Positions 43,290-53,499 of a stretch of DNA of 64,000 bases are shown one piece after another. Position 1 is the first letter of the stretch. The number at the start of each line of letters is the position of its first letter. The notes beneath the pieces were generated by a model. That model worked only from the letters and a program-made list of their open reading frames with translations, did not search any database and was not told the origin of the DNA. Source of the stretch: Streptomyces sp. R41 (GTDB lineage Bacteria; Actinomycetota; Actinomycetes; Streptomycetales; Streptomycetaceae); assembly GCF_041053055.1 (NCBI RefSeq), contig NZ_CP163443.1, positions 6,183,001 to 6,247,000 of the forward strand, written 5' to 3'. Position numbers and translations under genes: made by a program.

Positions 43290-43682
43290 GTGCCGGAACC
43301 GACCGTCGTCGCGGCGGGCTACTTCCAGTCCTACTCGGTCGTCGGACTGCTCGCCGTCGTGGGCGTGCTCTTCGTGGCCGTCGCCTTCGGGGCCGGCCGC
43401 CTGCTGCGGCCCGTGGTCCCCACCCCCGAGAAACTCATGACGTACGAGTGCGGCGTCGACCCGGTCGGCGAGGGCTGGGCCCACACCCAGGTCCGCTACT
43501 ACGTCTACGCGTTCCTCTATGTGATCTTCGCCGTCGACTCGATCTTCCTCTTCCCCTGGGCGACGGTCTTCGCCGCGCCCGGCTACGGCGCCGCGACGCT
43601 CGTGGAGATGTTCATCTTCCTCGGCTTCCTCGCCGTCGGCCTGCTGTACGCATACAAGAAGGGCGTCCTGACATGGACGTGA
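43290..43682 (+). CDS. nuoA: NADH-quinone oxidoreductase subunit A (second nuo operon)
   Basis: A 130-residue membrane subunit with three helices. The family motif PVVPTPEKLMTYECGVDPVGEGWAHTQVRYYVYAFLYVIFAVDSIFLFPWA is well conserved, including the loop Cys and the acidic residue in TM2. GTG 43290 is preferred, with GAGGGG 9 bases before it; upstream in-frame residues are promoter DNA. It overlaps nuoB by 10 bases and opens a ten-gene operon. Confidence 0.94.
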   Translation: MPEPTVVAAGYFQSYSVVGLLAVVGVLFVAVAFGAGRLLRPVVPTPEKLMTYECGVDPVGEGWAHTQVRYYVYAFLYVIFAVDSIFLFPWATVFAAPGYGAATLVEMFIFLGFLAVGLLYAYKKGVLTWT

Positions 43683-44266
43683 CCCCTGAGCCTGTTCTGC
43701 TTCCGGAGCCCAAGCGTCTCGGCGCGCTGGCCCGGCTGGCCCCCGAGCCGATGAAGGTTGTCCTGAACTGGGGCCGCCGCTACTCGCTCTGGGTCTTCAA
43801 CTTCGGTCTCGCCTGCTGCGCGATCGAGTTCATCGCCGCGTCCATGGCCCGCCACGACTTCATCCGCCTCGGCGTGATCCCGTTCGCGCCGGGCCCCCGC
43901 CAGGCCGACCTGATGGTGGTGTCGGGCACGGTCACGGACAAGATGGCCCCAGCCGTCAAGCGCCTCTACGAACAGATGCCCGAGCCGAAGTACGTCATCT
44001 CCTTCGGCGCCTGCTCCAACTGCGGCGGCCCGTACTGGGACTCGTACTCCGTGACGAAGGGCGTCGACCAGATCATCCCCGTCGACGTGTACGTCCCCGG
44101 CTGCCCGCCCCGTCCCGAAGCCCTGCTCCAGGGCATCCTCAAGCTCCAGGAGAAGATCGCCCGCGAGTCGCTGGGCGAGCGGTACGGGTCCGGGGCGGCG
44201 CGTCCGTCCGCGGCCGCGCTCCAGAGCGGCCTGGTAAAGCCGCCCGTCCCGGGGGAGGACCGATGA
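43673..44266 (+). CDS. nuoB: NADH-quinone oxidoreductase subunit B
   Basis: A 197-residue Fe-S subunit that carries cluster N2 next to the quinone site. All ligand motifs are present: FGLACCAIEF, SFGACSNCGG and VPGCPPRPEALLQGI. The C-terminal ~30 residues (GSGAARPSAAALQSGLVKPP) are an extra tail. It overlaps nuoA by 10 bases and nuoC by 4. Confidence 0.95.
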   Translation: MDVTPEPVLLPEPKRLGALARLAPEPMKVVLNWGRRYSLWVFNFGLACCAIEFIAASMARHDFIRLGVIPFAPGPRQADLMVVSGTVTDKMAPAVKRLYEQMPEPKYVISFGACSNCGGPYWDSYSVTKGVDQIIPVDVYVPGCPPRPEALLQGILKLQEKIARESLGERYGSGAARPSAAALQSGLVKPPVPGEDR

Positions 44267-52003: not shown

Positions 52004-53499
52004 GCTCCCTGGTCCAGTCCGTCGACTGGCTCGCGATCGCGCCGCCCACCCTCGCCGCGGTCGTCGGACTCGTCGTGCTCGTCGCCGACCTCTTCATCGG
52101 CGAGGCGAAGAAGGCGGTGCTCGGCTGGGTGTCGGTGGCCGGCCTCGCCGCGTCCGCGCTGATGCTGCTGCCCATCCTGGACGGCGACCGCGCCACCTTC
52201 TGTCTGACGGGCGACGCGAACGTCTGCAGCTACACGGCGGACCGGTTCACCCTCGTGATCCAGTTCCTGGTTCTCGGCGGCGCCCTCCTGGCGGCCCTGC
52301 TGTCGGTCACGGCCCTGAAGGACGCCGGCAAGCACCTCCCCGAAGGGGAGTTCTGGTTCCTGCTGCTCTCCTCGGCCGCGGGCGCCGCCCTGCTGCCCGC
52401 CTCCCGCGACCTCGCGACCCTCATCGTCGCCCTGGAAGTCGCCTCCCTGCCCGCCTTCGCGCTCGTCGGCATCAAGCGCGGCGACAGGAAGTCCTCCGAA
52501 GCCGCCCTGAAGTTCTTCCTGTCCTCCGTCACCGCGACCGCCGTGAGCCTCATGGGCGTCAGCTTCGTCTACGCCACGACAGGCACCCTCTACCTCACCC
52601 AGATCGCGGACAAGATCCAGCACGTCGACGGACAGTTCCACACGCTCGCCCAGACGGGCGTCGTCCTCACCCTCGTCGGCTTCGCCTTCAAGACGGCCGC
52701 CGTGCCCTTCCACTTCTGGGTACCCGACACTTACGTAGGGGCGCCTTTGCCGGTCGCCGCCTACCTGTCGGTCGTCGGCAAGGCGGTCGGCTTCTCCGGG
52801 CTGATCCTCGTCACCGTCGTCGCCCTCCCGTCGTACGCGGACGTCTGGGGCCCGGCACTGGCCGCCCTGGCCGCGCTCACCATGACGGTCGGCAACGTCG
52901 GCGCCCTGCGGCAGCAGGCCACGCGCGCGTACAGCGCGGTACGACTGCTCGCCTGGTCCTCCATCGGCCAGGCGGGATACCTCCTGGTGCCGATCGCGGC
53001 CGCCGGCTACACCAAGGACGCACAGAAGGCCATCGGCTCCACCGTGGCGTACGCCCTGATGTACGCCGCCGTGAACCTGGGCGCCTTCGCCGTGGCCGCG
53101 CTCGTCGCCCGCAGGAGCCCGCTGAACCGCATCAGCGACTACCGGGGCCTGTACGCCTCGAGCCCCCTGTCGGCGCTGCTCCTCGGCTTCTTCCTGCTCT
53201 GCCTCGCGGGCCTGCCGCCGGGCATCATCGGCCTCTTCGCCAAGGTCACCGTGTTCTCGGCGGCCGTCGACGCGGGCCTCGGCTGGCTGGCTGTCGTCAT
53301 GGCCGTCAACGTCGTGATCGCGCTCTTCTACTACCTCCAGTGGACGACGCTGCTCTTCCGCGCCCCCGAGGGCGAACCAGGCAAGCACCGCGTGCCGGCT
53401 CCGCTCACCGCGGCGATCGCCCTGACGGCCGTCCTGGGAATCGCCCTCTCCGGGGCACCCCAGCTGGTCCTGCGCTTCTCGGCCACCGGCCTGTTCTGA
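52000..53499 (+). CDS. nuoN: NADH-quinone oxidoreductase subunit N
   Basis: A 499-residue antiporter-like subunit with 14 helices: TLIVALEVASLPAFALVGIKRGDRKSSEAALKFFL (key Glu), VPFHFWVPDTYVGAPLPVAAYLSVVGKAVGFSGLI and AYSAVRLLAWSSIGQAGYLLVPIA. It is the last nuo gene and is followed by a strong hairpin. Confidence 0.95.
   Translation: MSSLVQSVDWLAIAPPTLAAVVGLVVLVADLFIGEAKKAVLGWVSVAGLAASALMLLPILDGDRATFCLTGDANVCSYTADRFTLVIQFLVLGGALLAALLSVTALKDAGKHLPEGEFWFLLLSSAAGAALLPASRDLATLIVALEVASLPAFALVGIKRGDRKSSEAALKFFLSSVTATAVSLMGVSFVYATTGTLYLTQIADKIQHVDGQFHTLAQTGVVLTLVGFAFKTAAVPFHFWVPDTYVGAPLPVAAYLSVVGKAVGFSGLILVTVVALPSYADVWGPALAALAALTMTVGNVGALRQQATRAYSAVRLLAWSSIGQAGYLLVPIAAAGYTKDAQKAIGSTVAYALMYAAVNLGAFAVAALVARRSPLNRISDYRGLYASSPLSALLLGFFLLCLAGLPPGIIGLFAKVTVFSAAVDAGLGWLAVVMAVNVVIALFYYLQWTTLLFRAPEGEPGKHRVPAPLTAAIALTAVLGIALSGAPQLVLRFSATGLF

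Follow-up and report, generated by a model that had tools for sequence, protein, structure and literature searches.

A second nuo operon in Streptomyces sp. R41, its distant MidA-linked nuoD2 and their arm-less relatives

A second nuo operon, nuo2, is already known from Streptomyces, where nuoA2, B2, D2 and H2–N2 have been described with nuoD2 lying apart from the other genes (PMC3765725; likewise PMC8388888). Data suggest that the nuo2 genes are expressed together as one operon (PMC3765725); their products reach much higher levels in S. coelicolor than in S. lividans, and an AbrC/nuo2 neighbourhood exists in the former (both PMC9739823). The function of nuo2 has been called unclear (PMC9239103). 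The present analysis concerns nuo2 of Streptomyces sp. R41, contained in a 64,000-nucleotide stretch of contig NZ_CP163443.1 (G000:C1, positions 6183001–6247000; the window), which has a G+C content of 70% and is part of a 10.46 Mb genome assembled as a single contig. Together with an orphan nuoD2 located 319 kb away beside a midA gene, this operon quite probably encodes an 11-subunit complex I that is free of the NADH module and has descendants elsewhere that have lost the membrane arm.

Two further described systems bear on this locus. The first is the 11-subunit complex I, for which the direct electron donor is an open question (PMC11238625). The second is the MidA/NDUFAF7 methyltransferase family. 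Human NDUFAF7 methylates Arg85 of NDUFS2 (PMC3829151); the equivalent arginine is dimethylated in Paracoccus and unmodified in E. coli (PMC3750175), and Thermus has a threonine at this position (PMC8042128). In the papers found to use it, the term "NuoBCDI" denotes either a Chloroflexi gene order or, as its usual name, the Q-module.

The operon and its distant nuoD2

The nuo2 operon spans positions 43236–53499 of the window and comprises ten open reading frames (ORFs), all of which match their families above the Pfam cut-offs:

43236..43682, + strand, nuoA2: PF00507, E 5e-31
43673..44266, + strand, nuoB2: PF01058; all cysteines of cluster N2 (CC, GxC and PGCPP motifs)
44263..45669, + strand, nuoC2: PF00329 at residues 29–149; NuoC domain of about 160 residues and a long low-complexity tail
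45666..46634, + strand, nuoH2: PF00146, E 1.6e-100
46637..47362, + strand, nuoI2: Fer4; two 4Fe-4S motifs and an N-terminal amphipathic helix
47359..48057, + strand, nuoJ2: PF00499
48057..48431, + strand, nuoK2: PF00420 (scan from 48054); both membrane glutamates
48428..50419, + strand, nuoL2: PF00361, PF00662; pump residues by motif
50426..52003, + strand, nuoM2: PF00361; pump residues by motif
52000..53499, + strand, nuoN2: PF00361; pump residues by motif

The Pfam scan of the operon found no nuoD, E, F or G among the ten frames, as the preliminary description had stated. Its overlapping codons hold for seven of nine junctions. Under the gene starts adopted, the overlap is 10 bases at A-B, 4 at each of B-C, C-H, I-J, K-L and M-N, and 1 at J-K; H-I and L-M are instead separated by 2 and 6 bases. 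The same D-less order B2-C2-H2-I2-J2-K2 is found in seven other genomes of the class (L092, L094, L097, L099, L101, L104 and L108; three of these loci are truncated by the end of a contig or of the fetched stretch), and because it recurs the arrangement is not due to chance. In these loci nuoA2 is adjacent in four, lies 7 kb off in L108 and was not seen in L097 and L104. In L104 (genome G220), some 5 kb of additional sequence separates nuoB2 from nuoC2, and a further 5 kb or so separates nuoH2 from nuoI2.

By motif reading, the ligands of N2, the cluster ligands of NuoI2 and the glutamates and lysines of K2, L2, M2 and N2, which we take to be the pump residues, are all intact. Since these cysteines and charged residues are kept, the Streptomyces-type nuo2 complex looks able to pump protons.

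Individual subunits show further features. The 468-residue third frame was considered as a NuoC-NuoD fusion or as NuoD, and this was ruled out by its sole Pfam match, PF00329. Its tail of about 280 residues is rich in Pro, Ala and Glu; NuoC has 176–289 residues in six other full nuo2 sets and 141–204 in 16 arm-less ones. In NuoB2 proteins, the GGPYWDSY segment is one residue longer than in NuoB1, and full-form NuoB2 has FAxxPRQ in place of the FRxSPRQ of NuoB1; the arginine of this segment is hydroxylated in mammals.

Searched against the whole genome, PF00346 matches nuoD1 within nuo1 and one other gene, at 5.906 Mb; neither is in the window. The second gene, nuoD2 (G000:C1:5906070-5907221), is intact, encodes 383 residues and is separated from nuoA2 by about 319 kb. 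Its product shares 37% identity with NuoD1 and can be aligned with solved NuoD chains over almost its full length. With it, the 11-subunit set is complete: NuoA, B, C and H–N in the operon, and D2 elsewhere. The full nuo operon for which the preliminary description had proposed a search is present as well, as nuo1 is a complete 14-gene set about 57 kb upstream of nuoA2. The expectation that NuoD must come from that operon or be absent did not hold up.

NuoD2 also occurs together with nuo2. In the family survey (131 genomes, 17 genera), NuoD2 was found in 130 genomes at 83% identity or more and NuoH2 in 130 at 76% or more, and the sole genome without NuoD2, G015, is also the one without NuoH2; the stretch of G015 examined (L110) carries nuo1 genes B–N and the end of A. 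The NuoD2 match is split or partial in G004 and G105. A nuoD elsewhere in the genome that co-occurs with this operon, which the preliminary description had named as evidence against its unusual complex, is therefore what was found. The operon it pointed to is real, and its key inference is corrected: this is probably a split complex I with a MidA-linked NuoD2 and arm-less descendants.

Outside the family the tie is looser. In the class survey of 246 genomes, 61 have NuoH2 and 59 of these have NuoD2 among the matches listed; the other two are assemblies that are 72% and 80% complete. NuoD2 is present in at least 99 genomes, and in 40 of these NuoH2 was not found, so that NuoD2 is not bound to the membrane arm and a strict tie to the full nuo2 set is ruled out. 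Its steady partners are B2, C2 and I2. The tallies of D2, H2 and MidA in this survey were compiled by hand from match tables, and very divergent NuoD2 may be missed. A match was called NuoD2 when it ran to the query's end (those of NuoD1 break off near residue 302), or when it was partial but at least 72% identical (G150, G222). Identity is only 39–50% for some of the matches counted, and few of those loci were retrieved.

None of 28 nuoB2 loci contains nuoD2, and none of 33 nuoD2 loci contains nuoB2. In actinobacteria, nuoD2 and midA lie in or near a folate/pantothenate biosynthesis region (L005 and other nuoD2 loci), with surrounding genes that are presumably fol, pan, coaX and lysS-like. 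In G157 (L098), nuoD2 has two antiporter-like matches (NuoM/NuoL) as neighbours, at 4426 and 7696, with identities of 31% and 38%.

MidA and the residues of NuoD2

The gene convergent with nuoD2, whose end overlaps that of nuoD2 by about 36 bases, is the predicted midA. It matches PF02636 (MidA/NDUFAF7 family) with 54.8 bits against a cut-off of 23.3 and is the only copy in the genome. A PF02636 match is found in 127 of the 131 family genomes (none in G015, G071, G127 and G130) and in 91 of the 246 class genomes; among the matches listed, 86 of these 91 have NuoD2, 5 do not and 142 genomes have neither MidA nor NuoD2. At the level of loci, MidA is present in 77 of 80 named nuoD2 loci and in 29 of 32 others. 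Since at least 232 of the 246 class genomes match the NuoD2 query in some way, mostly through NuoD1, the methyltransferase goes with NuoD2 in particular rather than with complex I in general.

The residues of the two paralogues fit this pairing. All 60 distinct NuoD2 sequences examined carry the HRG-type arginine of the MidA-target motif, whereas all 22 NuoD1 examined have a threonine there. Taking the linkage, the co-occurrence and this residue together, we infer that MidA may modify NuoD2. In addition, NuoD2 has a tryptophan (60/60) where NuoD1 has a tyrosine (22/22); the two solved chains aligned also have tyrosine at this position, which we take to be the quinone-binding tyrosine (Nqo4 Tyr87). 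NuoD2 thus departs from the 11-subunit complex I in its quinone-site residue. No CxxC nickel-iron motifs are present in the NuoD2 sequence, which sets it apart from Group 4 [NiFe] hydrogenases, and the cluster cysteine motifs are present in all 27 uncut NuoB2.

Probable loss of the membrane arm

A NuoB2 search was made in the 40 class genomes with NuoD2 and no NuoH2 found, and in 17 others. At least two NuoB matches were present in 38 of the 40 (G306 has one and G222 none). The second-nuoB locus was retrieved for 20 of the 40, and 18 of these 20 have B2-C2-I2 in that order; L112 and L114 are cut off by the contig end within nuoC2 or shortly after it, and the arm was judged there from the NuoH2 search only. 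A2, H2 and J2–N2 were not found in 17 loci (L115–L130 and L111). Among the arm-less genomes, G280, G159 and G324 are each assembled as one contig. The named assemblies nearest to the arm-less query are Frankiaceae/Frankiales, and many Streptomyces are among those listed.

The 17 arm-less trios keep all their iron-sulfur ligands and have lost the NuoI helix and the NuoB quinone segment. In L115–L130, the two cluster motifs of NuoI2 and every N2 cysteine motif are present in 16 of 16, the amphipathic helix is present in 0/16 against 8/8 full forms, and the PRQAD segment of NuoB in 0/16 against 7/7 uncut full forms. NuoI2 starts were set nearest to the expected place; several reduced frames open further upstream, still with no helix (the L122 frame has 553 residues). 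The first-loop motif of NuoD, GPQHP(S/A)THGVLRL, is found in 13/13 full, 4/4 recently reduced and 1/16 reduced NuoD2, and HPxxH is kept in all 33 compared. Of the other loci, L111 (G280) has also lost both helix and segment, L114 has the segment and A2, and L113 (G159) has helix, segment and A2. Between nuoC2 and nuoI2, L113 also carries a nuoH2 remnant (L113:8930-9301), in frame, internally deleted and 123 residues long, which is a membrane arm caught in decay.

What remains is under purifying selection, as the ratio of nonsynonymous to synonymous polymorphism (pN/pS) is 0.19–0.61 in all 14 comparisons within four pairs of related arm-less genomes. A tree of concatenated B-C-I-D from 24 genomes, rooted on nuo1 and assessed by ultrafast bootstrap, places arm-less forms at three points: a large clade (97%), which G197, whose arm status is open, joins at 78%; G280 with G146, beside the full form G351 (86%); and G159, beside the full form G277 (88%). 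The tree is rooted on a long branch, that of nuo1, and support is 44–56% at five inner nodes. The tree positions, the lost helix and segment, the kept ligands and the pN/pS values speak for more than one loss of the arm and for a remaining enzyme that is probably soluble. The reverse, a membrane-free ancestor with later gain of the arm, is less likely on three grounds: the genes stand in complex I order with some of them missing, G159 retains the nuoH2 remnant and the NuoI helix, and in the tree the arm-less forms are nested among full ones.

For the arm-less lineages, another reading has B2-C2-D2-I2 dock onto the membrane arm of nuo1 as an alternative entry for electrons. It draws on the 10 of the 16 reduced loci (L115–L130) in which the trio shares the retrieved stretch with nuo1 membrane genes, 3–7 kb from nuoN1. 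It is improbable, as the helix and the PRQAD segment are missing from every one of the 16 and the first-loop motif from all but one. Instead, we lean towards a membrane-free Q-module descendant, made of NuoB2-C2-I2 and a MidA-linked NuoD2, that arose through three or more independent losses of the arm. It would be soluble and probably ferredoxin-linked, with a new non-quinone or surface-quinone acceptor; the full Streptomyces nuo2 would then be the ancestral form with a pump, and its conserved role would be to carry out redox reactions at the N2/Arg/Trp site, not to pump.

Electron donors, alternatives and known systems

The genes around nuo2 point to a possible donor:

35623..36702, − strand, korB: beta subunit, PF02775
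36695..38623, − strand, korA: 2-oxoacid:ferredoxin oxidoreductase alpha subunit, TIGR03710 above cut-off; PF01855, PF01558
38918..39655, − strand, response regulator of an atypical two-component system, AbrC3-like by position: PF00072, PF00196
39892..41247, − strand, sensor kinase: PF13796, PF07730
41677..43263 (start tentative), − strand, second sensor kinase, divergent from nuoA2: PF13796, PF07730
53712..54575, + strand, htpX-like M48 peptidase, conserved downstream neighbour: PF01435

The kor genes and the two-component system are divergent from nuo2 and upstream of it, and family matches show that both the alpha and the beta subunit of KorAB are encoded here. The proximity of korAB to nuo2 noted in the preliminary description, with 4.6 kb between korA and nuoA2 by the present coordinates, is a conserved one: a korA-type gene is found in at least 18 of 27 nuoB2 loci, full and arm-less alike, and an htpX-type homologue in at least 12. 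These 27 loci are the window and 26 others (L097 left out), and their unequal extents make both counts lower bounds. The korA-type gene is divergent from nuoB2 in L111, L126 and L128, and in L117 a different gene occupies its position. This synteny supports a ferredoxin/2-oxoacid link to nuo2. NuoI2 itself gives weak, below-cut-off matches to models of the Kor/Por delta subunit.

A 14-subunit NADH:quinone oxidoreductase has NuoE, F and G encoded with the complex, and these are absent from the nuo2 operon. An NADH-independent, possibly ferredoxin-fed complex, as the preliminary description suggested, is likely. No dedicated NuoE, F or G for nuo2 was seen in the operon; NuoE was not searched genome-wide and two of the four PF01512 places were not examined. 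PF01512 matches at four places in the genome and PF10588 at two; one pair belongs to nuo1 and the other lies at 8.74 Mb. The latter (L231, G000:C1:8738500-8747500) is a second NuoE/F/G-like set with a transporter. It was rejected as the N-module of nuo2, since the E/F/G-like genes are followed by a 70-residue ORF, presumably formate dehydrogenase delta, and by one we take to be of the major facilitator superfamily type, so that the set is probably an NAD-dependent formate dehydrogenase. NuoF-like PF01512 genes are also found at G000:C1:1219326 and 3695619, with no PF10588 match nearby.

These observations suggest the following model. The gene content, the co-occurrence, the cluster ligands and the pump residues are, by sequence, those of an 11-subunit complex. 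During assembly, MidA would dimethylate the arginine of NuoD2 next to cluster N2. Reduced ferredoxin, from KorAB among other sources, may donate electrons to NuoI2, from which they would pass to N2 in NuoB2 and on to menaquinone at the NuoD2 site, where Trp replaces Tyr, while the H2–N2 arm would pump protons. In several actinobacterial lineages the arm appears to have been lost, leaving B2-C2-I2-D2 as a probably soluble iron-sulfur enzyme. Since this set is kept after arm loss, the commonly selected part is the redox core and not the pump.

Several points weigh against this model. The assembly of NuoD2 with the nuo2 products, its methylation and the donor are deduced from sequence, and 40 NuoD2 genomes have no NuoH2 hit. 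The pairing with MidA has gaps on both sides. In the family, G071, G127 and G130 have NuoD2 and no PF02636 match; in the class, the same holds for 13 of the at least 99 NuoD2 genomes (G250 and G306 of these have MidA by tblastn). Conversely, five genomes have a PF02636 match and no NuoD2, of which four are 72–80% complete and G196 is 94% complete; G196 is a real exception. MidA resembles solved members weakly (E 3e-6) and matches no NCBIfam model. Finally, synteny of korA and nuoB2 is not proof of electron transfer, because no korA-type gene was seen in 9 of the 27 nuoB2 loci, which differ in extent, and KorAB is also present in actinobacteria without nuo2.

The nuo2 products could instead join a 14-subunit complex with NuoD1 and NuoEFG, where they would take the place of nuo1 subunits of the membrane arm or the Q-module. 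Such a hybrid was proposed in PMC9239103, and for L2/M2 in PMC3765725 and PMC8388888, and both operons do occur in one genome. It is unlikely all the same, as a dedicated, co-occurring nuoD2 exists and identity to the nuo1 counterparts is low (37% between NuoD2 and NuoD1; 32–52% for B2, C2, H2 and I2). The arm-less I2 without a membrane helix and B2 without a quinone segment also argue against docking on the nuo1 arm. Less likely by far is that nuo2 and the B2-C2-I2/D2 sets are decaying, functionless duplicates. Repeated arm loss, the internally deleted H2 of G159 and the broken or partial D2 of G004 and G105 would suit decay, but nuo2 and D2 are near-universal in the family sample, the NuoB2 cysteines (27/27) and the HRG and Trp of NuoD2 (60/60) are kept, pN/pS is low in 14 of 14 within-lineage comparisons, and nuo2 is apparently expressed as a single operon (PMC3765725) with its proteins detected (PMC9739823). 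A true complex I without any NuoD, as the lack of nuoD in the operon and window might suggest, is scarcely credible, being already contradicted by the co-occurring nuoD2 and by NuoB2 and NuoD2 going together even without H2 (at least two NuoB matches in 38 of 40 such genomes).

To our knowledge, complex I Q-modules have been thought inseparable from the membrane arm. If the model of a split 11-subunit complex with arm-less descendants is true, repeated loss of the arm with B, C, D and I under purifying selection and all iron-sulfur ligands kept would show what a Q-module does alone, and the arm-less lineages would be a natural experiment on the residues needed for quinone reduction and for coupling. 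Arginine methylation of NuoD has been studied mainly in mitochondria. The genome here has both a NuoD with a methylatable arginine and a linked methyltransferase and another NuoD with threonine, so that a laboratory Streptomyces could serve to test the role of the modification. The published nuo2 cluster of unclear function would also gain a NuoC, a NuoD and a definite model.

Compared by published description, the operon and orphan gene are the same as Streptomyces nuo2 (SCO4599-4608) with its separate nuoD2. The available text of the published accounts lists no nuoC2, and in one NuoL is missing, whereas nuoC2 and nuoL2 are both present here; nor does that text name a MidA neighbour, a residue signature or arm-less relatives. 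In the open-access literature, no report was found of a nuoD2-MidA link, of the arginine signature of NuoD2, of Trp in place of the quinone Tyr or of an actinobacterial membrane-free NuoBCDI. With NDUFAF7/MidA, which dimethylates Arg85 of NDUFS2, the methyltransferase gene shares membership of PF02636 and a target-equivalent arginine (HRG) in NuoD2; it differs in being actinobacterial, distant in sequence, genetically linked to one NuoD paralogue and of predicted activity. Group 4 [NiFe] hydrogenases and their B-C-D-I-type module share NuoD ancestry, as seen in matches to formate hydrogenlyase (FHL) and membrane-bound hydrogenase (MBH) chains, but NuoD2 is without the Ni-Fe CxxC pairs and the arm-less sets show no membrane subunit. 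A further known system is the 11-subunit complex I of Desulfitobacterium hafniense (nuoABCDHIJKLMN), which likewise is without NuoEFG and keeps the Q and P modules (PMC11238625). There, the operon includes nuoD; here, nuoD2 stands apart next to midA, has Trp in place of the quinone Tyr and shares its genome with a 14-subunit set.

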